A stretch of DNA of 64,000 nucleotides from Rathayibacter sp. VKM Ac-2879 (GTDB taxonomy: Bacteria; Actinomycetota; Actinomycetes; Actinomycetales; Microbacteriaceae): the NCBI RefSeq assembly GCF_015351245.1, contig NZ_JADKSO010000003.1, positions 1-64,000 of the forward strand. Direction: 5' to 3'. Made by a program: the position numbers and the translations under genes. The notes under the pieces were generated by a model. The model made no database searches, was not told the origin of the DNA, and was given only the letters and a program-made list of their open reading frames with translations. Of the stretch, positions 22,403-62,367 are shown piece by piece (positions within the stretch are counted from its first letter, which is position 1; each line of letters opens with the position of its first letter).

Positions 22403-22465
22403 CCGCGAGATGCCACTTATGAGCCCCCGCCTCGGCGTGTCGTGCGCATAAGTGGCATCTCGCGG
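22403..22465. repeat. Dispersed palindrome, copy 1
   Basis: 22-bp arms (22403-22424 and 22444-22465, one mismatch) of the type CCGCGAGATGCCACTTATG, with a 19-base loop containing CGGCGTGTCG (22433-22442). It sits between the convergent SDR and GT9 genes, one base from the GT9 stop codon. There is no T-run after either arm, so it is not a textbook intrinsic terminator. Confidence 0.95.
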
Positions 22466-22466
22466 C

Positions 22467-23543
22467 TCACCGGGTCAGCAGCTCGCGGACGTCGGCGAGA
22501 ACGGAGGCGGGGAGCACGTCGTCGACGAAGCTCGGCTCGTGCTCGCAGCGAGGAGCCGTCCAGCCGACCTGGGTCGCGTCGCGACCGCAGACGGGGCAGT
22601 GCGTCGTCCAGCTGAGCTGCACCCGGTGGCGCCCCCGGCCCAACGGAGCCGCGTTGATCGCGTTGCCGACCCAGAAGACTCCCACCGTCGGCGTGCCGAC
22701 CGCAGCAGCCAGGTGCCGAGGGCCGCTGTCGTTGCCCAGCACCACGTCGGCGAGCGAGAGCAGTGCCGGCAGATCGCCCAGTTCGACCACGTCGACCCAG
22801 GACACGGCTCCAGGCGCCTGCGCGACGATCTCGTCCGCGGCGACGGCATCGGAGGCGTCGCCGACCACGAGCACGCGCGCCCCGTCGGCGAGCAGTGCCC
22901 GGGCCACGTCGGCGAAGGAGGCGGCGGGCCAGCGCCGCCGCGGATCCGTCGCCCCGGGATGGACCATCACGAGCGGGCCGGCGCCGGGCAGCGCCGGGGC
23001 GAGCCGATCGCGCCGCCGCGGCTCCACCGGCACCTCGGGCTCGAGCCGCACCGCAGCGGCTCCCGCGAGACCGACGATCTCGAGCGCGCGCAGCATCTCG
23101 TGCTGGTAGTAGAGGTACGGGACGGTGCGCTCGAGCTCGGCCGCATCGGGGGTGCGGCTGCCGATCGTGTGCCGAGCGCCGAGCCGCGCGAGGAACGGGT
23201 TGGAGTAGCGGCCGCCTCCATGCAGCTGCACCGCGAGATCGAAGCGGCGGCCCCGCATCCGAGCGGTGAAGTCCTCGACGACCCGCTCGTCCTCCCCCTC
23301 GCCGTCCCGGACGCCCTGGGCCACCGGCAGTATCTCGACGTCGCCGATCGCGGAGCCGACTCCGCCGAGCAGCACCCGGTGAGCCGGCGTGCCGAGCAGC
23401 GTGATCTCAGCGCCCGGGTACGCCTGGGCGAGCGCGTCCACAGCGGGCAGCGCGAACAGCAGGTCGCCGAGTCCGCCGCCGCGCAGCACGGCGATTCTCT
23501 CGACTCCCTCGAAGCGGTCGTGGAGCGGGGCGATGGCGACCAC
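22467..23543 (-). CDS. GT9 (heptosyltransferase-like) glycosyltransferase
   Basis: 358 residues from a GTG at 23543 preceded by GAGAGGA with 7-base spacing; the open frame further upstream is antisense-like. N-terminus: IAVLRGGGLGDLLFALPAVDALA. VMVHPGA lies in the linker. C-terminal site: VLGNDSGPRHLAAAVGTPTVGVF. After it comes a Cys cluster (THCPVCGRD then PRCEHE) that could bind a metal. It is transcribed against the rest of the cluster and divergent from the aldehyde dehydrogenase gene. Third GT9 of the cluster. Acceptor unknown. Confidence 0.87.
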   Translation of the reverse strand: MVAIAPLHDRFEGVERIAVLRGGGLGDLLFALPAVDALAQAYPGAEITLLGTPAHRVLLGGVGSAIGDVEILPVAQGVRDGEGEDERVVEDFTARMRGRRFDLAVQLHGGGRYSNPFLARLGARHTIGSRTPDAAELERTVPYLYYQHEMLRALEIVGLAGAAAVRLEPEVPVEPRRRDRLAPALPGAGPLVMVHPGATDPRRRWPAASFADVARALLADGARVLVVGDASDAVAADEIVAQAPGAVSWVDVVELGDLPALLSLADVVLGNDSGPRHLAAAVGTPTVGVFWVGNAINAAPLGRGRHRVQLSWTTHCPVCGRDATQVGWTAPRCEHEPSFVDDVLPASVLADVRELLTR

Positions 23544-23721
23544 GGCGGGTTCCTCTCGGTGGGGCGGAGCACGCGGCTCCGGGATGGTGCTCCCCTCCAC
23601 TTCCCACCGGGGCCGATCCGAAACCGGATCGCTCGCATGTCTGAGCGGGCGAGCCGCGGGTACCGGAGGGGTGCACGCGCGTCCGCGACCTGAGCTGACG
23701 CCTCCGACCCGAGAGGTGACC

Positions 23722-25044
23722 GTGACCATCGACACCGCGACCCCCGCCGCCACCAGCAGCACCGCCGTCCACCGCGCGCGCGCCGCGTTCCCCTCCTGGG
23801 CCGCGACTCCCCCCGCCGAGCGAGGAGCCCTCCTCCGCGCCGCGGCTCACCGGGTGGCCGAGCACGAGCAAGAACTCGCCGCCCTCAACGCCGACGAGAC
23901 CGGCAAGCCAGCGGGCGATGCCCTCGGCGGGGTCCGCGCGGGAGTCGACACCCTGCTCCAGTACGCCGAGCTCGGCCCCGTGCACCGAGGCCGCTCGCTC
24001 CGAGGAGGCGCCCTCCACGTCGACCTCGCCCTCCCGCATCCGCGCGGCGTCGTCCTCGCGCTGACCCCGTGGAACGACCCCGTCGCCGTCGCCGCAGGCC
24101 TGCTCGGCGCCGCGATCGTCTCGGGAGACGTCGTCGTGCATAAGCCGAGCGAGCGCAGCCCGCGCACGGGCGCGCTCTTCACGAGCATCCTCGCCGATGC
24201 TCTGCCCGAGGGCGTGCTGACGCTGGTCGAGGGAGGCGGCGCGGTCGGCGACGAGCTGGCCCGCACCGAGGGGGTCGATGTCCTCGCGCACGTCGGATCC
24301 ACCGCCACCGGCCGCGCGCTCGCGCGGGTCGCTGCGGTCACCGGCGCCCACGTGATCCTCGAGAACGGCGGCAATGACGCCCTCGTGGTCGACCGGGACG
24401 TCGACCCGGTCTGGGCCGCCGAGCAGGCCGCGCTCGGCGCCTTCGCGAACGCGGGCCAGATCTGCACCTCCGTCGAGCGGGTTTACGTGCACCGCGAGAT
24501 CGCCGAGGCCTTCACGGCCGCGCTGGTCGCCGAGGCCGAGCGCTGGAGCGCCGGTCCCCTCCCGCGCCTGGTCGACGGGCGGATGCGCGATGCCGTGCAC
24601 GAGCACGTCGCCGAGGCTCTCGCCTCGGGCGCCAGGGCGCTGACCGGCGGCACCCCCGGCGACGGCACCTTCTACCCGGCCACCGTCCTCGCCGACTGCA
24701 CCGACGAGATGCTGGTGATGACCGAGGAGACGTTCGGCCCGGTCGCTCCGATCCTCGTCGTCGACTCCTTCGACGAAGGCCTCGCCCGAGCCGCCGCCAG
24801 CCCCTACGGCCTCGCCGCGAGCGTCCTCACCGCCGACATGGAGCATGCGCACCGTGCCGCCGCGACCCTCCCCGTCGGCACCGTGAAGGTCAATGGCGTC
24901 TTCGGAGGCGCGCCGGGCGGCAGCGCGCAGCCTCGCGGCACCTCGGGCTCGGGCTTCGGCTACGGCCCGGAACTGCTCGACGAGATGACCACGACCACGG
25001 TCGTCCACTTCGGGCTTCCCGTCCTTCTCGGCGGCGCACGATGA
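23722..25044 (+). CDS. Aldehyde dehydrogenase family protein
   Basis: 440 residues, slightly short for the family. It has the NAD site residues LTPWNDPVAVAAG, VVVHKPSE and HVGSTATGRALA, the general-base Glu in HVILENGGND (usually ELGGK), and the nucleophile Cys in ANAGQICTSVERVYV. MTEETFGPVAPIL is typical of the C-terminal half. GAGAGG precedes GTG 23722. The stop overlaps the hldE copy 2 start (ATGA), so the two are translationally coupled. The usual GGKDP turn is altered. It probably oxidises an aldehyde made in the glycan or heptose route, but the substrate is not evident. Confidence 0.85.
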   Translation: MTIDTATPAATSSTAVHRARAAFPSWAATPPAERGALLRAAAHRVAEHEQELAALNADETGKPAGDALGGVRAGVDTLLQYAELGPVHRGRSLRGGALHVDLALPHPRGVVLALTPWNDPVAVAAGLLGAAIVSGDVVVHKPSERSPRTGALFTSILADALPEGVLTLVEGGGAVGDELARTEGVDVLAHVGSTATGRALARVAAVTGAHVILENGGNDALVVDRDVDPVWAAEQAALGAFANAGQICTSVERVYVHREIAEAFTAALVAEAERWSAGPLPRLVDGRMRDAVHEHVAEALASGARALTGGTPGDGTFYPATVLADCTDEMLVMTEETFGPVAPILVVDSFDEGLARAAASPYGLAASVLTADMEHAHRAAATLPVGTVKVNGVFGGAPGGSAQPRGTSGSGFGYGPELLDEMTTTTVVHFGLPVLLGGAR

Positions 25045-26513
25045 GCCTCGAGGGCTCGGCCCTGCACCGGGCGAGCGCGCTGATGGCGCAGGTCCACCAG
25101 CGACCGCCGGTCGTCGCCGTCATCGGCGACCTCATCCTCGACTCCTGGTGGCTCGGCGAAACAGAGCGGGTCGCTCGGGAGGCGCCCGCGCCGGTCTTGC
25201 GCCTCGAGGACGTGGTCGACGTGGCCGGTGGCGCGGCGAACACCGCCGCGAACCTGCGCGCCCTCGGCGCCGTGGTCCGCGCGGTCGGAGTCGCCGGGCG
25301 CGACTCGGAGGGTGACCGCCTCGTGGGCGCGCTCGAGCGCGCCGGCCTGAGCGCCGACGCGATCGTGCGCACCACCGCCTCGACCACGGTCAAGACCCGC
25401 GTCGTCGGCGGGGACAGTGTCATGCTGCGGGTCGACTCCGGCCCGCACCGCCCGACGCCCGAGGAGCTCGAGCTGCTCACGGAGGCCGCCATGAACGCTG
25501 CCGCCGATGCCGATGCCGTGCTCATCTGCGACTACGGCTCGGGGATCCTCCGCTCGGCCGTCGAGCGGCTGCTCGCCGTCACGCGCCCCGGGCTGCTCGT
25601 CGTCGACGCGCACGATCTCGCCGGCTGGGCCTTCGCGCGGCCCGATCTGGTGACGCCCAACGCGAAGGAGGCGGAGCGGCTGCTCGGAGTCTCCCTCGGA
25701 CGCGGCTCCGAGAGGGCTGTCGCGGTGCGCGATGCCGCCGAGCAGTTGCGCTCCCGCTCCGGCGCTCGCCACGTCGTCGTCACCCTCGACCGCGACGGCT
25801 CGGCCGCGCTCGACGAAGACGGCACGCTCAGCCGGACCTTCGCCCAGCCCGCCGAAGAGAAGCAGGCCTCGGGAGCCGGCGACACGTTCGCCGCGACCGC
25901 CACGCTCGCCCTCGCCGCCGGCCGCTCGCTCGCCACCGCCGTCGACCTCGCGCAGGCGGCCGCCGATGTCGTCGTGCAGCGGCCGGGCACCTCCGTCTGC
26001 TCAGCGGATGACCTGCTCGCCTCCCTCGCTGCCCCCGGCGCGGTCGTGCTCGGCGAGGAGGCGCTCGTCGAGGTCCTCGCGGAGCAGTCGCGGCGAGGCC
26101 GCCGGGTGGTCTTCACCAACGGCTGCTTCGACGTGCTGCACCGCGGCCACACCGCCTACCTGCGTCAGGCCCGCGAGCTGGGCGACGTGCTCGTCGTCGC
26201 GGTCAATGACGACGCCTCCGTGCGTCGGCTCAAAGGCGAGGGGCGCCCGATCAACCCCGAGGGCGATCGCGCCGGAGTCATCGCCGAGCTCGGCTGCGTC
26301 GACTACGTCACCCTCTTCGGCGGCGACACGCCGATCCCCCTGCTGGAGCGTGTGCGGCCCGACGTCTACGTGAAGGGCGGCGACTACAACCCCGACATGC
26401 TCGCGGAGGCGGCGGTGGTCCGCTCGTACGGCGGCACCGTCACCACGGTCGGCTACGTCTCCGAGCATTCGACGAGCGAGATGGTGCAGCGCATCCGATC
26501 GGTGGCGCCGTGA
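25041..26513 (+). CDS. hldE: HldE-like bifunctional heptose kinase/nucleotidyltransferase (copy 2)
   Basis: 490 residues. Kinase domain about 25-325 (VIGDLILDSWWLGETERVA, VAGGAANTAANLRALGA, KQASGAGDTFAATATLAL); nucleotidyltransferase domain about 345-485 (TNGCFDVLHRGHTAYLRQA, RRLKGEGRPINPEGDRA, DVYVKGGDYNPDML, STSEMVQRI). Every motif matches canonical HldE, so this copy is the best candidate for both steps: heptose 7-phosphate to 1,7-bisphosphate, and heptose 1-phosphate to the ADP- (or other NDP-) sugar. ATGA and GTGA overlaps join it to the aldehyde dehydrogenase and GT2 genes. Confidence 0.93.
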   Translation: MSLEGSALHRASALMAQVHQRPPVVAVIGDLILDSWWLGETERVAREAPAPVLRLEDVVDVAGGAANTAANLRALGAVVRAVGVAGRDSEGDRLVGALERAGLSADAIVRTTASTTVKTRVVGGDSVMLRVDSGPHRPTPEELELLTEAAMNAAADADAVLICDYGSGILRSAVERLLAVTRPGLLVVDAHDLAGWAFARPDLVTPNAKEAERLLGVSLGRGSERAVAVRDAAEQLRSRSGARHVVVTLDRDGSAALDEDGTLSRTFAQPAEEKQASGAGDTFAATATLALAAGRSLATAVDLAQAAADVVVQRPGTSVCSADDLLASLAAPGAVVLGEEALVEVLAEQSRRGRRVVFTNGCFDVLHRGHTAYLRQARELGDVLVVAVNDDASVRRLKGEGRPINPEGDRAGVIAELGCVDYVTLFGGDTPIPLLERVRPDVYVKGGDYNPDMLAEAAVVRSYGGTVTTVGYVSEHSTSEMVQRIRSVAP

Positions 26514-27382
26514 CCAGCCGCCGTTGGTCGGGACGTTGGGGCACGCCCGCCGCTCCCGAGCCGCCCGTGGTCGACGTGCTCGTCCCCACCGCCGGCCGGC
26601 GCGCCGAGCTCGCTGCGACGCTGGCCGGTCTCGCAGCGCAGGACGATCCTCCGTTCCGCGTCATCATCAGCGATCAGTCCGACGAGGCCGTCACCGAGAG
26701 TGATCCGACCGTCCGGGCCCTGCTGCGGGTGCTGGAGGCGCAGGGGCGCGCGCCCCTCGTGCGCCGCCACCTCCCCCGCCGTGGCCTGGCGGAGCAGCGC
26801 CACTCTCTGCTCTCGTGGGCGAGCGCGCCCGCGGTGTTGTTCCTTGACGACGATGTGTGGCTGGAGCCGGGGACGCTCGCGCGACTGCATGAGGCGCTGG
26901 AGCGACTCGGCTGCGGCTTCGTCGGGTCGGCCGTGCAGGGGTTGTCGTACCTCGACGACATCCGACCGCACGAGACGGAGGCGTTCGAGACGTGGGAGGA
27001 GCGCGTGCGGCCTGAGCGGGTGCGCCGGGGGACTCCGGAGTTCGAGCGCTGGCCCCTGCACAATGCGGCCAACCTCACGCATGTCGCGGCGCGCCTGGAT
27101 GTGCCGGAGGGCGGCTGGCGCGCCTACCGTGTCGCCTGGCTCGGCGCGTGCGTGCTCTACCGCCGAGATGCCCTTCTGGCCGTCGGCGGCTTCGACTTCT
27201 GGGAGCGGCTGCCCCCGGAGCACAGCGGCGAGGACGTCGCCGCGCAGTGGCGCGTCATGGAGCGCTTCGGCGGCGCGGGTCTCGTGCCCAGCGGCGCCGT
27301 GCACCTCGAGACGCCCACGACGGTCACCGACCGGCGCGTCGACGCCGTCGACCGGCTCTTCGCCGAAGAGCACAGTCAGTGA
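26510..27382 (+). CDS. GT2-family glycosyltransferase
   Basis: 290 residues of a GT-A enzyme: VDVLVPTAGRRAELAATLAGL at the N-terminus, VIISDQSDE, and the metal-binding AVLFLDDDVWLEPGTL near residue 110. The acceptor-side segment includes VAWLGACVLYRRDALLAVGGFD and HSGEDVAAQWRVME. No transmembrane segment. Its GTG overlaps the hldE stop. It is the last enzyme gene of the cluster and could add a non-heptose sugar. Donor unknown. Confidence 0.87.
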   Translation: MTSRRWSGRWGTPAAPEPPVVDVLVPTAGRRAELAATLAGLAAQDDPPFRVIISDQSDEAVTESDPTVRALLRVLEAQGRAPLVRRHLPRRGLAEQRHSLLSWASAPAVLFLDDDVWLEPGTLARLHEALERLGCGFVGSAVQGLSYLDDIRPHETEAFETWEERVRPERVRRGTPEFERWPLHNAANLTHVAARLDVPEGGWRAYRVAWLGACVLYRRDALLAVGGFDFWERLPPEHSGEDVAAQWRVMERFGGAGLVPSGAVHLETPTTVTDRRVDAVDRLFAEEHSQ

Positions 27383-27402
27383 GACCACTGAAGGACAGCA
27401 CG

Positions 27403-27594
27403 ATGGATGCACCCAACCCGATCCAGATCCAGAAGTACCTCGCGGGCATCGACTACCCGGCGTCGAAGGACACGATCGTCGAGACGGCCGAGAAGGAGGG
27501 AGCCGACACGAACGTCCTCGACGCACTCCGCGCGATCCCTGAGGGCGACTACGCCAAGCCCACCGACGTGAGCTCCGCCGTGTCGAAGGCCTGA
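27403..27594 (+). CDS. DUF2795 domain protein
   Basis: 63 residues that are almost entirely the DUF2795 fold: IQIQKYLAGIDYPASKDTIVETAEKEGA and LDALRAIPEGDYAKPTDVSSAV. AAGGA lies 11 bases before ATG 27403. The family is widespread in actinobacteria and without a proven role. It lies 20 bases after the GT2 stop and may be cotranscribed with the cluster, but nothing else links it to glycan synthesis. Confidence 0.9.
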   Translation: MDAPNPIQIQKYLAGIDYPASKDTIVETAEKEGADTNVLDALRAIPEGDYAKPTDVSSAVSKA

Positions 27595-27605
27595 CCCCTC
27601 CCCCA

Positions 27606-27668
27606 CCGCGAGATGCCACTTATGAGCCCCGACACGCCGTGCGGGCCCCTCATAAGTGGCATCTCGCG
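27606..27668. repeat. Dispersed palindrome, copy 2
   Basis: A perfect 20-bp stem (arms 27607-27626 and 27649-27668) with a 22-base loop. The loop core CGACACGCCG (27630-27639) is the reverse complement of the core in copies 1 and 3, so this copy is inverted. It sits between the convergent DUF2795 and FAH-family genes, 12 bases after the DUF2795 stop. Confidence 0.95.
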
Positions 27669-27728
27669 CAAGGCACCGTCCGCTGAGGCATGCGTCACGT
27701 CGACGGAGGCATTCCCACGCGGCCCGCG

Positions 27729-28514
27729 TCAGGCGCGCACGACCACCGGATTGAAGAGCGTGCCGATCCCCTCGATGTCGATCGCGACCGTGTCCCCGTT
27801 GGCGATCGGCCCGACACCGGCGGGGGTCCCGGTGAGGATCACGTCGCCCGGGAGCAGCGTGAACACCCGCGAGACGTAGGCGACGATCTCGGGCACGCCG
27901 TGGATCATGTCGCCCGTGCTACCGGACTGCTGCACGCGCCCGTTGACGCGCGTCTCGAGCGCGCTCTCGTTCCAGATGAACTCGGTCTCGATCACCGGCC
28001 CGAGCGGGCAGAAGGTGTCGTAGCCCTTGGCGCGCGCCCACTGCCCGTCCGAGCGTTGCAGATCGCGTGCCGTCACGTCGTTGGCGATGGTGTAACCGAA
28101 CACCACGTCCTCGTAATCCTCCGCGCGCACGTGGCGGGCGACCGCCCCGATCACGATCGCCAGTTCGCCCTCGAACTCGACCTGCTGGCTGTCCTCGGGG
28201 AGCACGATCGCCTCGTCCGGCCCGATCACGGCGGTGTTGGGCTTGAGGAACACCAGCGGCTCGGCGGGAGCCTCGCCACCCATCTCGGCCGCGTGGTCGG
28301 AGTAGTTCTTGCCGATGCCGATCACCTTCGAGCGCGGGATCACCGGTGCGAGGAGCTTCGCCTCCGCGAGCGGGATGCGCTCGCCCGTCGTCTCGAACCC
28401 GGCGAACATCGGGTCGCCGGCGAGCACGACGAGGTCGTCCTCGTCGAGGATCCCGAAATGGATCGCGCCGCCGTTGTCGCCTGCGCGCTGTGTGGAGAAC
28501 CGTGCGATCTTCAT
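27729..28514 (-). CDS. Fumarylacetoacetate hydrolase family protein
   Basis: 261 residues. MKIARF start, GIGKNYSDHAAEMG, FLKPNTAVIGPDEAI, the metal-binding QQVEFEGELAIVIG, GYTIANDVTARDLQ, FCPLGPVIET, and GDVILTGTPAGVGP are typical of the FAH-type hydratase/decarboxylase/acylpyruvase group. Members cleave or decarboxylate small 2-oxo acids with Mg. The ATG overlaps the ilvE stop (ATGA), so it is the last gene of a leuB-ilvE-FAH unit. The substrate cannot be assigned; a role with branched-chain 2-oxo acids is only a guess from position. Confidence 0.9.
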   Translation of the reverse strand: MKIARFSTQRAGDNGGAIHFGILDEDDLVVLAGDPMFAGFETTGERIPLAEAKLLAPVIPRSKVIGIGKNYSDHAAEMGGEAPAEPLVFLKPNTAVIGPDEAIVLPEDSQQVEFEGELAIVIGAVARHVRAEDYEDVVFGYTIANDVTARDLQRSDGQWARAKGYDTFCPLGPVIETEFIWNESALETRVNGRVQQSGSTGDMIHGVPEIVAYVSRVFTLLPGDVILTGTPAGVGPIANGDTVAIDIEGIGTLFNPVVVRA

Positions 28515-29629
28515 GCGTCCAACCTCGTCATCCAGCCGTGCTTGTCCTCGCGACGTCCGTATTGGATGTCGGTGAGCTCCTCGCGCAGCGACATCGTGAG
28601 AGCGCCGGCCGGCGCACCCTCGTGGCCGATCGAGAAGCCCTCGCCCTTCAGCTCGGCGATGGGAGTGATCACGGCAGCGGTCCCGCACGCGAATACCTCG
28701 ACCACGTCGCCCGAGGCCACTCCGTCACGCCACTCGTCGATCGAGACCTGTCGGCGCTCGATCCGATGTCCGCGGTCCTCTGCGAGCTGGAGCACGCTGT
28801 CCCGCGTGATCCCCTCGAGGATCGAGTCCGAGTCGGGCGTCACGAGCGTGCCGTCCTTCTTCACGAGCACCACGTTCATGCCCCCGAGCTCCTCGATCCA
28901 GCGCGACTCGGCCGAGTCGAGGAACAGCACCTGCGCGCAGCCGTGGCTGTACGCCTCCTGCTGCGGCAGGAGCGAGGAGGCGTAGTTACCGCCGGTCTTC
29001 GCCGCTCCCGTCCCGCCCTTCCCCGCGCGAGCATACGAGGTCGAGAGCCAGATCGACACCGGCGCGACGCCTCCCGAGAAGTAGGCCCCGGCCGGGCTCG
29101 CGATGACGTAGTAGCCCACCTTCTCGGCCGCGCGCACGCCGAGGAAAGCCTCCTTCGCGAACATGAAGGGGCGCAGGTAGAGGCTCGTCCCGGGCTCCGA
29201 GGGAACCCACGCGCCGTCGAGGGCGATCAGCTGGCGCAGCGACTCCACGAACAGGTCGCTCGGCAGCTCGGGCAGCGCGAGGCGCGCGGCAGAGCGCTGG
29301 AGGCGTCGCGCGTTCGCGTCGGGGCGGAACGTCCAGATCGACCCGTCCGCGTGGCGGTAGGCCTTCATCCCCTCGAAGATCTCTTGCGCGTAGTGCAGCA
29401 CCGAGGCCGCGGGGTCGAGCGCGATCGGCCCGTACGGCTGGACGCGGGGACGATGCCAGCCTCCGGCGCGCGACCAGCAGATGTCGACCATGTGGTCGGT
29501 GAAGTGGAGGCCGAAGCCGGGATTCGCGAGGATCGTCGCGCGCTCCTCGACGGAGCGCGGCGAGCCGTTCGGGATGACCTCGAAGGCGAGGTCGGTGGAG
29601 GACTGCTTCGGGGTGAGGTCGAGGGTCAT
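28511..29629 (-). CDS. ilvE: Branched-chain amino acid aminotransferase
   Basis: 372 residues of the fold-type IV PLP class: DHMVDICWSRAGGWH, LHYAQEIFEGMKAYRH, FRPDANARRLQRSA, KTGGNYASSLLPQQEA with the Lys for the Schiff base, LGGMNVVLV, LEGITRDSVLQLA, and CGTAAVITPI. It performs the last step of Val, Leu and Ile synthesis with glutamate as amino donor. It lies 23 bases after leuB and overlaps the FAH gene downstream. Length and motifs are normal for actinobacterial IlvE. Confidence 0.97.
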   Translation of the reverse strand: MTLDLTPKQSSTDLAFEVIPNGSPRSVEERATILANPGFGLHFTDHMVDICWSRAGGWHRPRVQPYGPIALDPAASVLHYAQEIFEGMKAYRHADGSIWTFRPDANARRLQRSAARLALPELPSDLFVESLRQLIALDGAWVPSEPGTSLYLRPFMFAKEAFLGVRAAEKVGYYVIASPAGAYFSGGVAPVSIWLSTSYARAGKGGTGAAKTGGNYASSLLPQQEAYSHGCAQVLFLDSAESRWIEELGGMNVVLVKKDGTLVTPDSDSILEGITRDSVLQLAEDRGHRIERRQVSIDEWRDGVASGDVVEVFACGTAAVITPIAELKGEGFSIGHEGAPAGALTMSLREELTDIQYGRREDKHGWMTRLDA

Positions 29630-29652
29630 CGTCGTTCTTCTTTCGGGAGGGG

Positions 29653-30702
29653 TCAGCGGAGGCGGGCGACGATCGAGTCGCCGATCGCGGCGGTGGCGCG
29701 CCGGGTGCCGTCGCGCGCCTCGATGTCGGCGGTGACCGCAGCGGTGACGCGGGCGGCCTCGTCGCCGCGGCCGAGGTGGTCGAGCAGCATCGCCACCGAG
29801 AGGATCGCGGCGGTCGGGTCGGCGAGCTGCTTCCCGGCGATGTCCGGCGCGGATCCGTGGACCGGCTCGAACATGCTGGGGAACGCGCCCTCGGGGTTGA
29901 TGTTGCCCGAGGCGGCGAGTCCGATGCCGCCGCTGATCGCGCCGGCCAGATCGGTCAGGATGTCGCCGAAGAGGTTGTCGGTGACGATGACGTCGAACCT
30001 AGCAGGATCGGTGACCAGGAAGATCGTCGCCGCATCGACGTGGAGGTAGTCGACGGCCACGTCCTCGTAGGTGGCCCCTACCTCGTCGACGACGCGCTTC
30101 CACAGCGAGCCGGCGAAGACGAGCACGTTGGTCTTGTGCACGAGGGTGAGGCGTGAGCGGCGCTTGCGGGCGAGCTCGAAGGCGTGCCGCACGACACGCT
30201 CGACGCCGTACGCCGTGTTCACCGAGACCTCGTTCGCGATCTCGTGTTCCGTGCCCTGGCGGATCGAGCCTCCGGTGCCGACGTAGGGCCCTTCCGTGCC
30301 CTCGCGGACGACGACGAAGTCGACCTCTCCTGGGTCTGCGAGGGGCGACGGCACCCCGGTGTAGAGACGAGTCGGGCGCAGGTTCACGTAGTGGTCGAGC
30401 GCGAACCGCAGTCGCAGGAGAAGGCCGCGCTCGATGGAGGCGTCCTTCAGTCGCGGGTCGCCGGGTGCGCCGCCGACCGCCCCGAGGAGGATCGCATCGT
30501 GACCGGCGATCGCCGCGAGATCCTCGTCGGTGAGCACGTCGCCCGTCTCGAGGTAGCGCGCGGCGCCGAGCGAGAATGTCGTCTTCTCGATCGCCAGCCC
30601 GGAGTCGGCGGTGACCGCGTCGAGGACCTTCACGGCCTCGGCGACCACCTCGGGACCGATCCCGTCTCCGGGAATGACGGCGAGCTTCACGGTGCGGGGC
30701 AT
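29653..30702 (-). CDS. leuB: 3-isopropylmalate dehydrogenase
   Basis: 349 residues: [21 protein letters not shown] at the N-terminus, [66 protein letters not shown], and [20 protein letters not shown]. It oxidises and decarboxylates 3-isopropylmalate in leucine synthesis (NAD, Mg). It heads the leuB-ilvE-FAH unit. About 150 bases to the MFS gene upstream hold its promoter; I see only a weak TTGACG-like box there. leuA, leuC and leuD are not in the window. Confidence 0.97.
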
Positions 30703-49913: not shown

Positions 49914-49976
49914 CCGCGAGATGCCACTTGTGCGCGCCTCCCTCGGCGTGTCGCGCGCACAAGTGGCATCTCGCGG
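49914..49976. repeat. Dispersed palindrome, copy 3
   Basis: A perfect 24-bp stem (49914-49937 with 49953-49976) and a 15-base loop. Core CGGCGTGTCG at 49944-49953, the same orientation as copy 1. Arms read CCACTTGTGCGC where the other copies have CCACTTATG; both arms changed together. Convergent gap between GH15 and mscS, 7 bases after one stop and 5 before the other. Confidence 0.95.
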
Positions 49977-53505: not shown

Positions 53506-53535
53506 CTGCAGAGAACCGGAAGTTACCATCGTTCC

Positions 53536-54138: not shown

Positions 54139-54189
54139 CGCGCGCTTCGGAGACGAAGAAGACTTCACAGGTGCGACGACGACCGAGGG

Positions 54190-54560
54190 TGGAGATGGGG
54201 GGAATCGAACCCCCGTCCATCGCTGTGATTCTGCGCCTTCTACGGGTGTAGCCAGTGAGAGCGTTCTGCTCGGCCCCGACCGTTACCACTGGCGCATCGG
54301 TCGACGGGCCCAGCCCGAGTGCACGTCCCGCGTCGCCCTCAGGCGTAACGACGCAGCAAGTCCTCTTGATGACGCCAGGATCCGGGGCGAGGACACACCC
54401 ACGGGCTGACGGACTATCTACTCTGGCTTAGGCAGCGAGAGCGAAGTCGGTGCGCTTGTGTTCGGCACCTATTGTTTTTCAGAGATCGTTAACGAGATAA
54501 CCCTGAATCCTCGACCCGCTTCTCGCAGTTTCGCAGGCAATGTCGAAACCGATCATCCCC
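54190..54560 (-). ncRNA. ssrA: tmRNA (ssrA)
   Basis: The tRNA-like ends pair (GGGGATG at 54560 with CATCTCC at 54191-54197), and the T arm GGGGGTTCGATTCCCCCC is present. A discriminator A is at 54190; CCA is not encoded. The tag frame ends in RTDFALAA then TAA, about 12-13 codons beginning at a GCC or GGT before EHKRTDF. Pseudoknot-rich middle region as expected. It rescues stalled ribosomes with SmpB, whose gene is 1.6 kb upstream on the same strand. Confidence 0.95.
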
Positions 54561-54630
54561 GCGATCACTCGCCGGCTCGGGAGCCGGAGGAGTGGGTCGT
54601 CGTCGCACACTATGGAGTTGCGACTTCAGT

Positions 54631-56112
54631 CTACCGCGCCTCGCGCGCCGAGACCCGACGACGACGTAGATCGAGCAGCCCGAGCACGAGCGCGAGGGCG
54701 ATCAGGCCCAGGGTGACGAAGTAGCCGTGTCGGAACGCGTCGTGATACTGGGTGAGACCCTCTGCCATGCCCTGCTCACTCGCGAGTGTGGCGAAGAAGA
54801 CGGCGGAGGCACATGCCGTTCCGACCGCGGTCCCCACCCGCTGGCCGAGCTGGCCCACCGAGCCGGCCACCCCGCCCTGCGCCGGCGGAATCTCGGCGAG
54901 CGTGAGCGTCTGGTTCGGTGACACGACGAAGCCGCCGCCCGCTCCGGCGACGAGCATCGCGGCTCCCATGCCGTAGGCGGCCGTGTCGGCGGGCAGAGTC
55001 TCGGCAGCGAGGAGGACGAGGCTGAAGCCCGCTACCACGAGCACGATTCCGAGGACGACCAGCGCCCGGCCGTAGCGCTGCACCAGCTTGCCGCCGTACC
55101 ACGCCGAAATCGCCGAGGTCAGGGCGAACGGAATACTCACCATGCCCGCGAAGACGGGCGCGAGGCCTAACCCCTGTTGGAGAAACAGCGTCGTGAGCAG
55201 GAAGGTCGCCGGTATCGCCGCGAAGTAGGACGTGGCCACCAGAATGCCGTTGCGGTACGAGCTGGTGCGGAAGATGCGGAAGTCGATCATCGGAGTGCGC
55301 CCCCGGGCCGCGTAGCGCGCCTCCCACCGCACGAAGGCGGCCGCGGCGACCGCCGCGAGCGCGAGCCAGAACCAGCGGTAGGGAGAGTCGCTGGAGGAGC
55401 CGGTCGTGAGCAGGAACGGCAGCATGAACGCGAAGATCGCGACCGCGAGAAGGAGCAGTCCCACCGGGTCGAGCGAGGTGTCGCCGGTCGGTGCATTCTG
55501 CCGCTTGGGGAGGAGACGCCAGGCGAAGACGAAGGCCGCGATCCCGAGCGGGATGTTCATCCAGAACAACAAGCGCCAGCCGTCTTGCTCACCGCCCACG
55601 GCGATCAGCAGCCCGCCCAGAGTCGGCCCGAACGCGGTGGCGACGCCGACGGTGGCGCCGAAGACGCCGAAGGCGCGTGCCCGCGCGGCTCCCGTGAACA
55701 GCTGCTGCACCAGCCCGAGGACCTGCGGCATCTGAATGCCCGCGGCCACGCCCTGCAGGAAGCGCACCACCACGAGCACCTCGATGCTCGGCGCGAGCGC
55801 GCAGAGGAGGCTCGTGACCGTGAAGGCCGACAGACCGATGAGGAACAGCAGCCGCCGGGAGCGGAGATCGCCGAGTCGGCCCGACGGCACGAGCGCGAGC
55901 CCGAACGCCAGTGCGTAGCCCGCGACGATGAGCTGCAACTGGCTCGCATCCGCCGACAGAGACTTCTCGATCGAGGGCAATCCGACATTGACCTTCGACA
56001 GGTCGAGAATCGTGATGGCGGCGACGGACACCGCGACGGCGAAGGCACGCCAACGGGAGCGGTCGTCGATGCCGCTCGCGGGGGCAGGCTGTCGCGCGTC
56101 GGAGGAGGTCAC
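54631..56112 (-). CDS. DHA2-type MFS transporter
   Basis: 493 residues from GTG 56112 (GGAGA two bases before it). About 14 hydrophobic segments: ILDLSKVNVGLPSIEKSL, VPSGRLGDLRSRRLLFLIGL (motif A), VRFLQGVAAGIQMPQVLGLVQQLF, and FGPTLGGLLIAVGG. Likely a proton-driven drug or metabolite exporter; substrate unknown. It lies between smpB and ssrA on the same strand, an insertion between two functionally linked genes. Confidence 0.92.
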   Translation of the reverse strand: MTSSDARQPAPASGIDDRSRWRAFAVAVSVAAITILDLSKVNVGLPSIEKSLSADASQLQLIVAGYALAFGLALVPSGRLGDLRSRRLLFLIGLSAFTVTSLLCALAPSIEVLVVVRFLQGVAAGIQMPQVLGLVQQLFTGAARARAFGVFGATVGVATAFGPTLGGLLIAVGGEQDGWRLLFWMNIPLGIAAFVFAWRLLPKRQNAPTGDTSLDPVGLLLLAVAIFAFMLPFLLTTGSSSDSPYRWFWLALAAVAAAAFVRWEARYAARGRTPMIDFRIFRTSSYRNGILVATSYFAAIPATFLLTTLFLQQGLGLAPVFAGMVSIPFALTSAISAWYGGKLVQRYGRALVVLGIVLVVAGFSLVLLAAETLPADTAAYGMGAAMLVAGAGGGFVVSPNQTLTLAEIPPAQGGVAGSVGQLGQRVGTAVGTACASAVFFATLASEQGMAEGLTQYHDAFRHGYFVTLGLIALALVLGLLDLRRRRVSAREAR

Positions 56113-56221
56113 ACTCTCCAGTGTCGCAAAGAGCGACAGATGCCGGAGAGGCTTGCGCCGCAGCCGTCGGGCGACGTGCGCGCCGGCCCGACCGGGCACC
56201 TCCGCTGAAGACGGTGCGGCT

Positions 56222-56698
56222 CTACTCGCCCAGGCGCCGGCGTGTGGCCATCGCGCGGTCAGCCTCGCGACGGTCCTGACGTTCCCGCAGCACCTGGCGC
56301 TTGTCGTAATCCTTCTTGCCCTTCGCGACGGCCAGCTCGACCTTTGCCTTGCCGTCGCTGAAGTAGAGCGAGAGCGGGATCAACGTGTAGCCGCCCTCCT
56401 TGACCTTGTTGTGGATCTTGAGGATCTGCGCCTTGTGCAGCAGCAGCTTGCGCTTTCGGCGGGGCGGATGGTTGGTCCACGTCCCCTGCGCCCACTCGTT
56501 GATGTGCACGGCGTCGAGCCAGGCCTCGCCGCCATCGACGAAGGCGTAGCCGTCGACCAGGGAGGCACGGCCGGCGCGCAGCGACTTCACCTCGGTACCG
56601 GTCAGGACGAGGCCGGCCTCGTAGGTGTCCTCGATGAGGTAGTCGTGACGCGCCTTACGGTTGGTCGCGACGACCTTCTGACCCTGCTCTCTGGGCAC
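56222..56698 (-). CDS. smpB: SsrA-binding protein
   Basis: 158 residues: [103 protein letters not shown], and the basic C-terminal tail ([14 protein letters not shown]) that enters the mRNA channel. Partner of tmRNA. ATG 56698 with a hairpin and a TATACT box in the gap towards ftsX. Confidence 0.98.
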
Positions 56699-56720
56699 GA
56701 CGGATCCTCTCCGAAAACGA

Positions 56721-56754
56721 CTGATGGGCCACCCCGATCGGGGCAGCCCACCAG
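56721..56754 (-). terminator. Hairpin between ftsX and smpB
   Basis: CTGATGGGC (56721-56729) pairs with GCCCACCAG (56746-56754), one mismatch, with an inner CCCCGATCGGGG. On the minus strand it is followed at a distance by TTTT. TATACT (56755-56760 region, minus strand) just before it may be a -10 box for smpB. Confidence 0.5.
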
Positions 56755-56779
56755 TATACGCTCCGGTCGGAGGCGGCGA

Positions 56780-57690
56780 TCAGACCCGGAGGTAGCGCGC
56801 GATCGCGACGTTGGCCGAGACGGCCGCGAGTACGATGCCCACCACGACGAGGATCGGCACCACCAGCAACGCGTCGTCGAGCCCGACGAACGAGGTGAGT
56901 GGGATGCGGTACGCCAAGAAGCCCTGGACGAAGAACTGCACGATGGCCACCACCGCCACTCCCGCGAGGATCGACCCGATCAAGGCGGCGAACACCCCCT
57001 CGAGGATGAACGGGGTCTGGATGAACCGGTTCGAGGCTCCCACGAGGCGCATGATGCCCAACTCCCGTCTGCGCGAGAACGCCGAGAGGCGGATCGTCGT
57101 CGCGATGAGGAGCACGGCGGCCACGAGCATGAGCACCGCGATGCCGATGGCCGTGTAGCTCGCGGCGTTGAGAATCGAGAAGATCTGGTCGAGGTAGCGC
57201 CGCTGGTCGGTGACGCTCTCGACCCCCGAGACGTTCGACAGGCTCTCGACGATCACCTCCGACTGCGTCGGGTTCTTGAGGTTGATCCAGAAGGTCTGGT
57301 TGAGCAGATCGGGAGTGACGTACTCGGCGACCGGGTTGCCGGCGAACTGCTGCTGGAAGTTCGCGAACGCCTGGTCGTGGTTCTCGAAGTACGAGCGATC
57401 GATGTAGGGCGAGAGGGTCGGACCGTCGAGCTGCGCCTGGACTGCGTCGATCTGCTCCTTCGTGGCGTCGGAGCCGTTGCAGTTCGAGCCGCCGGAGGTG
57501 GCGGTGCACATGTACACGGCGACCTGGGCCTTGTCATACCAGAAGTTCTTCATCTGGCCGATCTGCATCTGGAGCAGGATCGCCGTGCCCACGAAGGTCA
57601 GCGAGATGAAGGTGACCAGGATCACCGAGACGACCATGGAGACGTTGCGTCGCAGGCCGCTCGCGACCTCCGACCAGATCAGTGCGAATC

Positions 57691-57694
<4 letters not shown>
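56780..57694 (-). CDS. ftsX: Cell division protein FtsX
   Basis: 304 residues. One N-terminal membrane segment (about 20-45), a periplasmic-facing/extracytoplasmic domain with [10 protein letters not shown] and a Cys pair ([10 protein letters not shown]), then three C-terminal segments and [28 protein letters not shown] of the FtsX/MacB domain. With FtsE it controls peptidoglycan hydrolases at the septum. Its ATG overlaps the ftsE stop (ATGA). Confidence 0.97.
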
Positions 57695-58812
<1,118 letters not shown>

Positions 58813-58885
58813 GTCGGTACGAGGGTAAGCGACGATCCCGAAGAGTCGGCCGAGACGGACCGCGGCGCGTCGAGACGCGCGATGA

Positions 58886-59986
58886 TCAGGCCGACTTCCG
58901 CCAGCGGATCCCCGCGGCGATGAAGCCGTCGATGTCGCCGTCGAAGACGTGCGAGGGGTTGCCGACCTCATGGTCGGTGCGGAGGTCCTTGACCATCTGG
59001 TACGGCGCGAGCACGTAGCTGCGCATCTGGTCGCCCCAGCTCGCCGTGATGTTCCCGGCCAGCTCCTTCTTGGTCGCCGCCTCCTGCTCCTTCTGGATCA
59101 GCAGGAGCCGCGACTGCAGGACGCGCATGGCCGCCGCACGGTTCTGGATCTGGCTCTTCTCGTTCTGCATCGACACGACCGTCCCCGTGGGGAGGTGGGT
59201 GATACGCACCGCGGAGTCGGTGGTGTTGACCGACTGACCGCCGGGCCCGGAGGATCGGAAGACGTCGACCCGGATGTCGCTGTCGGGGATCTCGACCGCG
59301 CCGGCCTCCTCCATCAACGGGATGACCTCGACCGCGGCGAAGGATGTCTGGCGCTTGCCCGCGGCACCGAAGGGGCTCATCCGCACGAGGCGGTGCGTGC
59401 CCGCCTCGACGGAGAGCGTGCCGAAGGCATAGGGCGCGTCGATCTCGAAGGTCGCCGACTTGATGCCGGCCTCTTCCGCGTAGCTCGCGTCCATGACCGT
59501 CGCGGTGTACTTGTGCTTCTCGGCCCAGCGCAGGTACATGCGCATCAGCATCTCGGCGAAGTCGGAGGCGTCCACTCCGCCCGCGCCGGCGCGGATCGTC
59601 ACGACCGCAGGGCGGTCGTCGTACTCGCCGTCGAGCAGCGTCTGCACCTCGAGCTCGCCCATCACCTTCTGCAGGGCGGTGAGCTCGGCGATCGCCTCCT
59701 GCTCCGACTCGGCGTCCTCGGCCTCGTTGGCCATCTCGACGAGCACCTCGAGGTCGTCGAGGCGCCGCTCGATCGACGTGATGCGAGCCAGCTCAGACTG
59801 GCGGTGGCTCAGAGCGCTCGTGATCTTCTGTGCGGCGTCGGTGTCGTCCCACAGGTCGGGGGCGCCTGCCTGCTCGCTCAACTCGGCGATCTTCGCGCGG
59901 AGCCCCTCGACGTCGATGACGGCTCGGATGTCGGAGAAGGTGGAGCGGAGAGCAGTGATCTGCTCGGTGAAGTCGTTGTCCAGCAT
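58886..59986 (-). CDS. prfB: Peptide chain release factor 2
   Basis: 366 residues. Class I release factor: coiled coil at the N-terminus, [23 protein letters not shown] with the SPF stop-recognition tripeptide, and [20 protein letters not shown] with the catalytic GGQ. It reads UGA and UAA. There is no in-frame internal UGA, so the programmed frameshift of many prfB genes is absent. It lies 73 bases upstream of ftsE, in the common prfB-ftsE-ftsX-smpB order. Confidence 0.97.
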
Positions 59987-60035
59987 GGTTCCCCCAGACT
60001 ACCGGGGGCCCGGACAGGGGTCTGGGAGCCGGGCG

Positions 60036-60041
60036 TACTCT
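60036..60041 (+). promoter_or_regulatory. -10 box of the MFS gene
   Basis: TACTCT lies 4 bases before ATG 60046 and 7 before the in-frame GTG 60049. The transcript is probably leaderless, in which case GTG 60049 may be the true start. Confidence 0.45.
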
Positions 60042-60045
60042 GGGG

Positions 60046-61302
60046 ATGGTGACCGCCTCCCCCTCGCGCCCGTTCCCCGTCGGTCCCCTGCTGCTGTCCA
60101 CCTTCCTCCCGACGCTGCTGTTCTCGATCGGCGAGGGCGCGATCATCCCGCTCCTCCCGGCCGCAGCGGGCGACCTCGGCGCAACCCTCGCGCTCGCGGG
60201 GCTCGTGGCGGGGATGATCATGATCGGCGAGCTCGCGGGCGACATCCCGAGCGGCTGGATCGTCTCGCGGATCGGCGAGCGCGGCGCGATGCTCTCGGCC
60301 TCGGGGGCGTCGATCCTCGGGCTCGTGGTGTGCCTTCTCTCGACCTCGTGGGTCGGACTGACGGTGGGCGTCTTCGTCATCGGGCTGGCGACGGCCGTGT
60401 TCGCCCTGGCACGGCACGCGTTCATGACCTCGTTCGTGCCCATCAGTCACCGGGCACGGGCGCTGAGCTCGCTGGCGGGAGTCTTCCGCGCCGGCTGGCT
60501 CGCCGGCCCGTTCCTCGCGGCCGGCGTCGTGCACCTCACTGGCTCGGTCGAGTCGGTGTTCTGGGTGCACATCGTCTGCTGCCTGGCCGCGGTCGTCGTG
60601 CTGCTGCTCGTGCCCGACCCGGCGACGGTGCTGCGCCGCGCGCAGGCCGCGAGCGGCGAGGCGCCGACCTCGCTCGCGCCGGAGTCGTCCGCGGGCCTCG
60701 TGCGCACCCTGCGCGACCACCGCGGCGTGCTGGCCCGGATGGGCTCGGGAGCGGCGGTGATCGGCGCGCTGCGCGGGAGTCGCACGCTGATCCTTCCGCT
60801 CTGGGCGGTGAGCATCGGCCTCGCCGAGACCGACACGGCGATCATCATCGGCGTCGCCGGGGCGCTCGACTTCGCCCTGTTCTACTTCGGCGGCGCCCTG
60901 ATGGATCGCTTCGGCCGAGGCGCGACGGCGATTCCGTCGATGATCGGGCTCGGAGCGGGACACATCGCCCTCGCCCTCTCGCTGTTCAGCGCGGATCCGG
61001 TGCCGTGGTTCATCGGGATCGCCTGCGTCCTCGCGATGGCCAACGGGATCGGTTCCGGCATTCTCATGACGATCGGCGCGGATCTGGCTCCAGCGGAGGA
61101 TCCTGCCCCGTTCCTCGGCGCGTTCCGCTTCACCGCCGACGCGGGAGGGGCGGCGGCTCCGGTGCTGCTGTCGCTGCTGACCGCCGCGATCTCGCTGCCG
61201 TTCGCCGCGGTCGGGATGGGCGCGCTGGGCCTCGCGGGCGCCGGCGCACTAGCCCGCTGGATCCCGCGATACGTGCCGCGCCGGCGGGCGACCGCCTCCT
61301 AA
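60046..61302 (+). CDS. MFS transporter, 12-segment type
   Basis: 418 residues with 12 hydrophobic segments. IPSGWIVSRIGERGAMLSASG is motif A after the second helix, and FALARHAFMTSFVPISHRARALSSLAGVFRAGWLAGPF follows. The middle loop (about residues 190-215) is hydrophilic. Unlike the two DHA2 transporters it is DHA1-like in size. Substrate unknown. It is divergent from prfB across 59 bases and is followed 15 bases later by tRNA-Leu. Confidence 0.9.
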   Translation: MVTASPSRPFPVGPLLLSTFLPTLLFSIGEGAIIPLLPAAAGDLGATLALAGLVAGMIMIGELAGDIPSGWIVSRIGERGAMLSASGASILGLVVCLLSTSWVGLTVGVFVIGLATAVFALARHAFMTSFVPISHRARALSSLAGVFRAGWLAGPFLAAGVVHLTGSVESVFWVHIVCCLAAVVVLLLVPDPATVLRRAQAASGEAPTSLAPESSAGLVRTLRDHRGVLARMGSGAAVIGALRGSRTLILPLWAVSIGLAETDTAIIIGVAGALDFALFYFGGALMDRFGRGATAIPSMIGLGAGHIALALSLFSADPVPWFIGIACVLAMANGIGSGILMTIGADLAPAEDPAPFLGAFRFTADAGGAAAPVLLSLLTAAISLPFAAVGMGALGLAGAGALARWIPRYVPRRRATAS

Positions 61303-61316
61303 GCTGGAGGCCGCAC

Positions 61317-61397
61317 GCGGGAGTGGTGAAATGGCAGACACGCAGGATTTAGGTTCCTGTGCCGAAAGGCGTGAGGGTTCGAGTCCCTCCTTCCGCA
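61317..61397 (+). tRNA. tRNA-Leu (anticodon UAG)
   Basis: Acceptor GCGGGAG/CTTCCGC, anticodon stem CAGGA/TCCTG with loop TTTAGGT (anticodon TAG), a long variable arm (GTGCCGAAAGGCGT), T arm GAGGGTTCGAGTCCCTC. Discriminator A at 61397; CCA is not encoded (CGA follows). Confidence 0.95.
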
Positions 61398-61555
61398 CGA
61401 CAGTGTCGTTACGAAGAACCCTTCGGCCGACGCGTTCCTCGGCGAAGGAGTCGGCGTCGACCGAGCGGAGCGAGCCGTGGCCGGTCGGGCACCCGCGCCG
61501 ATTCCGACGGGGCGGCCCGGTACGCTGAGCGGCACCGTCGACGACTGGAGAACCG

Positions 61556-62296
61556 TTGAACCACGCCGCCCTGATCCCCTGGCTCGATCCGGAGACGATC
61601 CTCACCTCCTTCGGACCGTGGGGCGTGCTCGTGGTCTGCCTGATCGTCTTCGCCGAAACGGGGCTGCTCATCGGCTTCCTCTTCCCCGGCGACACGTTGC
61701 TCATCATCACGGGTCTCCTCGCGCACGAGAACGCCTCTCAGGGCGGCTTGGGCGTGCCGATCTGGCTGATCTGCCTCGCCATCGGCCTCTCGGCGTTCCT
61801 CGGGGGTGAGGTCGGCTACCTGATCGGACACAAGGCCGGTCCGCGCATCTTCGAGCGCAAGGAGTCGGGCTTCTTCAGCATCGAGAACGTGAAGCGCACC
61901 AACGCGTTCTTCGAGCGCTTCGGCGGGTTCGCGGTGATCCTCGCGCGTTTCGTGCCGATCGTGCGCACCTTCGCTCCGATCGCGGCCGGCGTCGCTCACA
62001 TGAACTACCGCAGATACAGCCTGTACAACCTGATCGGCGCGCTGATCTGGGGAAGCGGCGTAACTCTCCTCGGCTGGCTTCTCGCCTTCATCCCGCCTGT
62101 CGCCGCGTTCGTGTCGCACTACATCGACGTGATCCTCATCGGTGCGGTGCTGCTCGCGCTCGTGCCGACGCTGTTCCACTTCTTCCGCCAGCAGCGCAGG
62201 GCGAAGCTCGCGAACGACAAGGGGACGGACGCCTCCGAGGCGAGCGCCTACGTGCTCGACCCCGAGACGCTCGACGACAAGCACCCTCGCGCCTGA
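61556..62296 (+). CDS. DedA-family membrane protein
   Basis: 246 residues from a TTG with GGAGA 6 bases before it. DedA/VTT signature: VFAETGLLIGFLFPGDTLLIITGLLA, EVGYLIGHKAGPRIFERKES, FARFVPIVRTFAPIAAGVAHMNYRRYSLYNLIGALIWG, and several hydrophobic segments. The family flips undecaprenyl phosphate or related lipids, needed for wall and glycan recycling. It ends 8 bases before dispersed palindrome copy 4. Confidence 0.93.
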   Translation: MNHAALIPWLDPETILTSFGPWGVLVVCLIVFAETGLLIGFLFPGDTLLIITGLLAHENASQGGLGVPIWLICLAIGLSAFLGGEVGYLIGHKAGPRIFERKESGFFSIENVKRTNAFFERFGGFAVILARFVPIVRTFAPIAAGVAHMNYRRYSLYNLIGALIWGSGVTLLGWLLAFIPPVAAFVSHYIDVILIGAVLLALVPTLFHFFRQQRRAKLANDKGTDASEASAYVLDPETLDDKHPRA

Positions 62297-62304
62297 CGCC
62301 TCTC

Positions 62305-62367
62305 CCGCGAGATGCCACTTATGAGCGCGACACGCCGACGCGCGAGCTCATAAGTGGCATCTCGCGG
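62305..62367. repeat. Dispersed palindrome, copy 4
   Basis: A perfect 22-bp stem (62305-62326 with 62346-62367) and a 19-base loop with core CGACACGCCG (62328-62337), so it is oriented like copy 2. Convergent gap between the DedA and rdgB genes. Confidence 0.95.

Follow-up and report, generated by a model that had tools for sequence, protein, structure and literature searches.

Four palindromes in convergent gaps

The window, by which we mean the whole analysed stretch of 64,000 nucleotides from Rathayibacter sp. VKM Ac-2879 (contig NZ_JADKSO010000003.1, positions 1 to 64,000), contains four copies of a palindrome, each located between two convergent genes. A preliminary description, made from the sequence alone, had given their coordinates and named the neighbouring gene pairs, and both were confirmed in our analysis. 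The features are as follows:

22403..22465, + strand: palindrome copy 1, convergent gap SDR / GT9
22406-22418 (+) and 22450-22462 (-): half-sites of copy 1
22433-22442, + strand: core CGGCGTGTCG of copy 1
27606..27668, - strand: palindrome copy 2, convergent gap DUF2795 / FAH
27630-27639, - strand: core of copy 2
49914..49976, + strand: palindrome copy 3, convergent gap GH15 / MscS
49944-49953, + strand: core of copy 3
62305..62367, - strand: palindrome copy 4, convergent gap VTT (DedA) / Ham1 (rdgB), traced through 15 related genomes
62328-62337, - strand: core of copy 4

The outer arms are perfect in all four copies, the loop of copy 2 is one base longer, and the loop core is oriented, lying on the + strand in copies 1 and 3 and on the - strand in copies 2 and 4. 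With up to three mismatches allowed, the half-site CGAGATGCCACTTNTG occurs in the window exactly eight times, two per copy, against 1.46 expected, and none of 100 shuffles reached eight. The window has 52 gaps between called genes, 11 of them convergent; four of these 11 and none of the remaining gaps hold a copy (hypergeometric p=0.001), which agrees with the earlier estimate of four occupied gaps in about ten.

Both strands of the four copies fold into stable stem-loops (-41.5 to -53.6 kcal/mol). No T-run was found beside any of the four on either side, so that the earlier view that these are not ordinary intrinsic terminators stands: each is a stem-loop without a U-run. Terminator-like sites were not listed at copies 1 and 2, the two which the scan covered, and Rfam gave no match above gathering score at the palindromes of the window, L013, L007, L300 and L288.

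A 63-bp repeat family of Rathayibacter

In Rathayibacter (Microbacteriaceae) there is a 63-bp repeat family to which the window palindromes belong. The search of relatives proposed in the preliminary description returned matches in 15 of 15 Rathayibacter genomes, and the richest genomes counted hold more than 80 copies with perfect arms. The common design consists of two constant 13-bp half-sites, an off-centre core CGGCGTGTCG and a fixed length. Compensating changes between the two sides occur in the inner arms, which are frequently mismatched while the outer arms are fixed; two of five covariation measures were not above shuffles. In other genera the core is often kept and the arms are different, and viral contigs gave no exact match to the Rathayibacter arms. 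The idea that a TGA exactly 6 bp outside serves as a built-in stop or belongs to a longer palindrome was dropped because the left and right flanks of one copy are not mirror images.

REPINs and REPs have similar properties: they are palindromic, lie outside genes, keep a fixed length and show compensating changes in the stem (excerpts of PMC3116915 and PMC8049555). As in that group, the copies are many, short and extragenic. The family differs from REPINs in being a single 63-bp palindrome with a central core, whereas a REPIN is composed of two tagged REP hairpins.

Placement relative to genes

The statement that the palindromes always lie between convergent genes holds for the window and fails genome-wide, as among 46 copies in 2.0 Mb of G403 26 are convergent, 15 tandem and 3 divergent. 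With respect to called genes, 44 of the 46 are intergenic, one lies within a gene and one at an edge. The enrichment in convergent gaps, a check which had been suggested beforehand, was evident in the same genome: it is eight-fold, with copies in 25 of 167 convergent gaps and in 18 of 834 remaining gaps of at least 70 bp (p=3e-10). The majority of copies are directly downstream of a stop codon and, because tandem pairs also hold many copies, what the placements have in common is the stop codon immediately upstream rather than convergence. The gene caller drops or shortens low-scoring genes, as with the partly called second nuclease paralog of G403, so some "gaps" may contain genes and the control set is without such genes.

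Loop orientation is random relative to transcription, and no obvious replication-strand trend was seen across half a genome without a located origin. The palindrome is kept in 32 of 33 orthologous gaps, among which no movement was seen. Four in-place loop flips between orthologs were counted, leaving out a fifth candidate (L016) for which the unflipped alignment fits better. No target-site duplication was recognised in a comparison of one close empty site (L085) and diverged ones.

In-place flips and matched arm changes are what hairpin template switching is expected to produce, and the palindromes could in principle be maintained neutrally, with no partner enzyme, if template switching during replication perfected them and chance gene conversion copied them. 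We regard this as highly improbable, as the inner arms are often mismatched while the outer arms stay fixed, and the nuclease association presented below would be left unexplained.

A transcript-end role of the palindromes is plausible. It is conceivable that they are nothing else, that is, bidirectional U-less "I-shaped" terminators or barriers at mRNA 3' ends, selected and immobile, with a nuclease gene that simply lies between two of them. The long stem stable on both strands, the location right after stops, the convergent enrichment and the stability at orthologous sites all speak for such elements, and strong U-less stem-loops are reported to be common at Streptomyces transcript ends (excerpts of PMC8269248). 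The likeness to the I-shaped terminators of GC-rich bacteria covers a strong stem-loop, the missing U-run and the position after genes; the palindromes differ in that their arms and core have a fixed sequence, their length is constant, their families are specific to genomes and they are associated with a nuclease. Neither fixed arms and length nor an oriented core is needed in a terminator. The orientation of the core is random to transcription, and matched locus-specific palindromes flanking related nuclease genes, in one case on the 5' side, are not accounted for. We therefore consider a purely transcript-end nature of the palindromes unlikely.

A palindrome-bracketed nuclease gene

In 9 of 15 genomes of the genus, one conserved convergent gap contains a Vsr/EDxHD-type nuclease gene flanked by two copies of the palindrome; the nine bracketed genes occupy one orthologous gap and represent one ancestral case. 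A whole palindrome stands on each side of the gene and the putative recognition site is not split into halves. Four of the six genomes devoid of the bracketed gene still have one palindrome (G007) or a remnant recognised by eye (G404, G362 and G008), and G336 and G307 have none at this gap. These six hold 17-77 R1 matches each, and the number of R1 matches showed no significant difference with nuclease presence (p=0.17), five of the counts being lower bounds (at least). The evidence on the nuclease comes from the related genomes, not from the window's strain.

Of 40 loci with nuclease homologs elsewhere in Microbacteriaceae, 17 have a matched palindrome pair of their own around the gene, against 2 of 1,273 control genes, with a flank limit of 500 bp; at the other 23 loci matched palindromes are lacking. 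This count excludes L337, L341 and L352, of which L341 and L352 would have scored as false positives, and L300 and L296, found via their palindromes, were kept separate. Since loci were first fetched for holding palindromes, the unbiased test is the later bracketing test at the conserved gap. The palindromes at related nuclease genes are different in sequence and locus-specific. A further locus comparison used a flank limit of 700 bp and did not include L391, L373 and L398; the L057 locus covers one side of the gene. Across loci, arm likeness and protein likeness are weakly correlated (r=0.20, Mantel p=0.03). Altogether, the association between palindromes and nuclease is strong.

The nuclease protein

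The nuclease has an EDxHD/Vsr-type catalytic domain whose catalytic residues are invariant across 18 homologs. Of 10 homologs tested, 8 scored above the DUF559 cut-off, which likens the protein to the DUF559/MTES_1575 group; all 10 remained below the cut-off of MTES_1575, which sets it apart. An AbiEi-like N-terminal region is present in some homologs, and AbiEi models gave no match to the Rathayibacter protein itself. NCBIfam yielded no match for L306, L068 and L334, and PHROGs one weak endonuclease match (L343). In the predicted structure the N-terminal domain has pLDDT below 50. Foldseek with the whole model returned nothing at E below 0.001, 3r3p could be matched through the C-terminal domain only, and unrelated mitoribosome proteins score almost as high as Vsr in structure comparison. 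A search of solved structures with a single sequence query gave no matches.

The two constant half-sites with fixed spacing and a constant core would also suit a binding site of a chromosomal or regulatory protein, such as an AbiEi-like nuclease acting as a binder only, placed where the positive supercoils of convergent genes accumulate; AbiEi reportedly binds inverted repeats (PMC7319586). Copies found also in tandem and a few divergent gaps, and catalytic residues which are invariant though needless for binding alone, make this quite unlikely in our judgement.

Comparison with known systems and interpretation

The preliminary description had considered sites for a protein or RNase III, an element that ends transcripts from both directions, and a mobile REP/MITE-like palindrome. 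The repeat family is indeed REP-like, being short, extragenic, high-copy and placed after genes (compare excerpts of PMC3733652, by which REPs favour convergent and tandem gaps), yet its movement by RAYT, or by an ordinary transposase as for a MITE, appears very improbable: the transposase search, which covered the RAYT family (Y1 transposase, PF01797), gave matches in 0 of 15 genus genomes against 5 of 14 control genomes, which led us to reject RAYT as the partner enzyme, and a different, palindrome-bounded nuclease is present instead. Taken as a whole, the earlier interpretation is partly supported.

REPIN/REP populations come with a partner gene that has been inherited over long times and has copies of the repeat at its flanks (excerpts of PMC3116915 and PMC8049555). 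Here, too, a vertically inherited gene is flanked by repeats, and the Vsr/EDxHD-type nuclease takes the place of RAYT. The catalytic domain is shared with Vsr and the EDxHD homing endonuclease I-Bth0305I, and relatives with sites empty of the gene recall EDxHD homing endonuclease genes; in contrast to these, the Rathayibacter gene is not intronic, has a whole palindrome per side rather than half of a split site, and is accompanied by many solitary palindromes elsewhere in the genome. Within the open-licence literature, at the level of titles and abstract starts, no palindrome partner was found in work naming DUF559, no link of palindromes with DUF559, MTES_1575, AbiEi/Vsr or EDxHD, and no nuclease link in work on Rathayibacter or Microbacteriaceae palindromes or actinobacterial REPs.

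We hold it to be moderately probable that the palindromes form a REPIN-like population whose partner is the vertically inherited nuclease of the Vsr/EDxHD homing-endonuclease type and not a RAYT transposase. The nuclease would bind the palindrome as a dimer, with the arms as half-sites and the core as the cut site, and would cut or nick it. Repair of the break may then copy and homogenise palindromes across the genome, and selection would leave copies chiefly at 3' ends, and these long hairpins may act there as U-less transcript ends for both directions.

A broader proposal, on which we are evenly divided, is that this is a second, independently evolved partnership of the REPIN/RAYT type. Vsr/EDxHD-type nucleases with a DNA-binding N-terminus would have, in each clade, their own palindrome of ~57-63 bp, recognised as a dimer, cut near the core and copied round the genome, with solitary palindromes as satellites and 3' ends as safe sites; the partnership may extend beyond Microbacteriaceae. 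If true, repeat populations of the REPIN kind arose more than once, and what keeps them becomes comparable across two unrelated enzymes. The nuclease group would also gain a possible role, and a conspicuous family of 3'-end hairpins would have an explanation. At E of 1e-30, the nuclease group was found in 217 of 398 Microbacteriaceae genomes.

Palindromes of the window

The four palindromes lie exactly where the preliminary description had placed them, and their outer arms are perfect:

22403-22465, copy 1, loop core in plus direction
27606-27668, copy 2, loop core in minus direction
49914-49976, copy 3, loop core in plus direction
62305-62367, copy 4, loop core in minus direction

Each copy of about 63 bp is composed of two arms, the outer parts of which are half-sites of 13 bp, and an off-centre, oriented loop core. 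The window contains eight half-sites, a pair in each copy, with a chance expectation of 1.46. As had been reported, no T-run is present on either side of any copy, and the palindromes occupy only some of the convergent gaps (4 of 11) and none of the others, with 52 gaps in total as defined by a codon-trained gene caller. Genome-wide tests were run on genomes of relatives.

Anatomy of the palindrome

The distance across the inner arm ends equals 53 bp in 141 of 147 copies, and the core is present in 124 of the 147. Variation falls in the inner arms and the left half of the loop, according to a conservation table which is chiefly informative on variable parts, as its copies were chosen for arms and core. 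In the surveyed 2.0 Mb of the Rathayibacter genome G403, a search allowing up to 3 mismatches per arm and free spacing returned 46 copies. All of these span 57 bp, and the arms of 35 are perfect; one further hit, which had 6 mismatches and a different spacing, was discarded as chance. Compensating changes in the inner arms amounted to 47 double-change cells versus 23.8 after shuffling, a value reached in 0 of 500 shuffles and not approached by slid controls (at most 13). Neither the pairs with double changes (5 versus 5.4) nor the pair types (19 versus 18.3) exceeded the shuffles, and no mirror symmetry was found between left and right flanks outside the 63 bp.

Gene context of the copies

The earlier statement that the palindromes always separate convergent genes holds in the window (4/4) but not in G403, where 26 copies are convergent, 15 tandem, 3 divergent, 1 is located within a called gene and 1 at an edge. 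The suggested enrichment in convergent gaps is nevertheless evident there: among gaps of at least 70 bp, 25/167 convergent and 18/834 other ones are occupied (odds ratio 8.0, p=3e-10), while tandem and divergent occupancy (15/563 versus 3/271) do not differ significantly (p=0.20). In loci selected for holding a copy, the 120 copies of the Rathayibacter group are distributed as convergent 52, tandem 50, divergent 8, inside gene 6 and edge 4, and the 20 of Naasia as 11, 8, 0, 0 and 1, respectively.

The upstream stop codon is at most 35 bp away for 36 of the 50 tandem copies (uniform placement: mean 18.6, maximum 29 in 2,000 draws), and 225 of 340 sides (170 copies in loci) have a stop within 150 bp. 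On 38 of these 225 sides the stop codon is exactly 6 bp from the palindrome, with C-rich intervening bases. Loop orientation relative to transcription is random (Rathayibacter-group loci: tandem 29 versus 21, convergent 24 versus 27; G403: tandem 11 versus 4, convergent 12 versus 14).

Stability at orthologous sites

The palindrome is kept in 32 of 33 orthologous gaps, mainly of Rathayibacter sp. VKM Ac-2857 (G001) and VKM Ac-2856 (G002) versus G403, and in 39 of 40 under looser orthologue mapping. Arms are 98.9% identical, a figure reflecting change on the G403 side, as query copies were picked for perfect arms, and flanks 92.5%; 4 of the 32 retained palindromes have a loop flipped in place. 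In 15 genomes and the window, the gap of copy 4, between the convergent VTT (DedA) and Ham1 (rdgB) genes, holds an intact element in six, with both loop orientations among them, and a decayed one in two; it is short and lacks the element in six, and is filled by a different gene in two. Read on a tree of two genes, in which some deep nodes are weak, this distribution agrees with ancestral presence followed by decay and loss.

Spread of the repeat family

At least 120 stretches in a species-genome collection match both arms, and the matches listed come nearly all from Rathayibacter and Naasia, together with Microbacteriaceae VKM Ac-2854, one Arthrobacter MAG and one Coriobacteriaceae MAG. Palindromes of these two MAGs have similar outer arms (L105:6697-6749 and L080:1056-1115, respectively); no homolog of the nuclease described below was detected in either locus at E of 1e-5. 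Perfect-arm copies number 83 in VKM Ac-2857 and 87 in VKM Ac-2856; Naasia lichenicola has 22, and nine further genomes have 0-10. Perfect inner arms are present in 12 of 398 Microbacteriaceae genomes. No exact match to the arms was found in viral contigs.

The proposed search of relatives, carried out with a covariance model (R1), gave matches in 15/15 genus genomes, from 16 up to at least 150 per genome (five at the latter level), numbers which exceed those of copies since one palindrome can match on both strands. At E of 1e-6, 18 of 249 family genomes matched, including 13 that do not belong to the genus set. Nine of the 13 keep the core CGGCGTGTCG, a feature partly selected by the model, which contains it, in palindromes of 61-64 bp with quite different arms (e.g. 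GGGTGGCCACGAATGC, GCGAAGTGCTCGTTGTTGC), which are not selected; the core is absent from the matched palindromes of G005 (Naasia), G043, G069 and G161.

The nuclease gene in Rathayibacter

Between neighbouring palindromes G403 encodes a 292-residue protein of Vsr/EDxHD nuclease type, matching DUF559 above and MTES_1575 below cut-off. Its relatives adjoin palindromes in the first loci examined, which had been chosen for palindromes; an unbiased test therefore consisted of a protein search of the genus (60 matches, 15 genomes, 30 with loci) followed by R1 on the loci. All nine best loci (G403, G002, G001, G006, G402, G180, G401 and G009, 73-100% identity; G011, 55%) bear R1 palindromes on both sides, and the 21 paralog loci of the genus gave no R1 match. 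All nine genes occupy one orthologous convergent gap and thus represent one ancestral arrangement, not nine events. Six genomes have a nuclease-less version of this gap: a single mutated palindrome is present in G007, a single remnant in G404, partial remnants, recognized by eye, in G362 and G008, and none in G336 or G307; the same two-gene tree requires about five separate nuclease losses.

The G403 genome has a second nuclease paralog (1079931-1080979), which is bracketed by palindromes of its own; their arms, CTCGCCCGAGAAGGCTCGTT, also flank the relative of this paralog in G180 (L334), and one dispersed relative of these palindromes is located at G403 549989. Further dispersed palindromes of G403 (L151-L250, 0-2.0 Mb; e.g. 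28238, 460949, 1224629) are of GGGCGTATCGAGAYCCACC, GGCTACTCGACCAGCATG and GGCTCGC/GCGAGCC types.

Nuclease homologs of other clades

As a generic palindrome finder revealed, homologs from other clades are often flanked on each side by matched palindromes of their own, whose arms do not resemble the Rathayibacter ones. Matching-arm pairs bracket 27 of 54 loci, 19 of 42 after removal of two artefacts, one incomplete locus and nine orthologs, and 17 of 40 after further removal of two loci found via their palindromes; these 17 are not all independent, as kinship links some of them (L338 and L345 share 80% identity). The matched palindromes measure about 44-70 bp (median 57). As controls, 10 of 816 cross-locus pairs match, and 3 of 1,274 G403 genes of at least 600 bp are bracketed, the nuclease itself among the three (17/40 versus 2/1,273, Fisher p=6e-26). 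In a phylum-wide sample 7 of 27 additional loci are bracketed; three of the seven come from genomes that the family sample had included, and the others may include related loci. Genomes new to the family sample in which DUF559-type nuclease genes are bracketed by matched palindromes include G500 (L384), G760 (L385), G708 (L393) and G412 (L378), two of which are 5.6-6.0 Mb in size.

The strongest statement that we make is that these palindromes and nucleases of this group are associated. From the fold, the symmetry, the fixed length and the pair of occupied and empty sites we infer a mechanism in which the nuclease would bind the palindrome as a dimer and would cut near the core, and the palindrome would then be copied by repair. 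The nearest functional analogue is REPIN/RAYT (PMC3116915, PMC8049555); the palindromes are not filed there because RAYT, its defining enzyme, was sought in the genus genomes and not found. A role at transcript ends is compatible with this reading and may be the reason for keeping copies; PMC8269248 describes strong U-less stem-loops at transcript ends in Streptomyces.

Other features of the window

1-10900: sparse, low-scoring gene calls, although the codon model works on the remainder; perhaps foreign DNA or unusual composition
3482-3525: inverted repeat of different sequence (20-nt arms, 90% paired, 4-nt loop)
9213-9347: borderline match to the Rfam ALIL pseudoknot
54187-54560, minus strand: tmRNA
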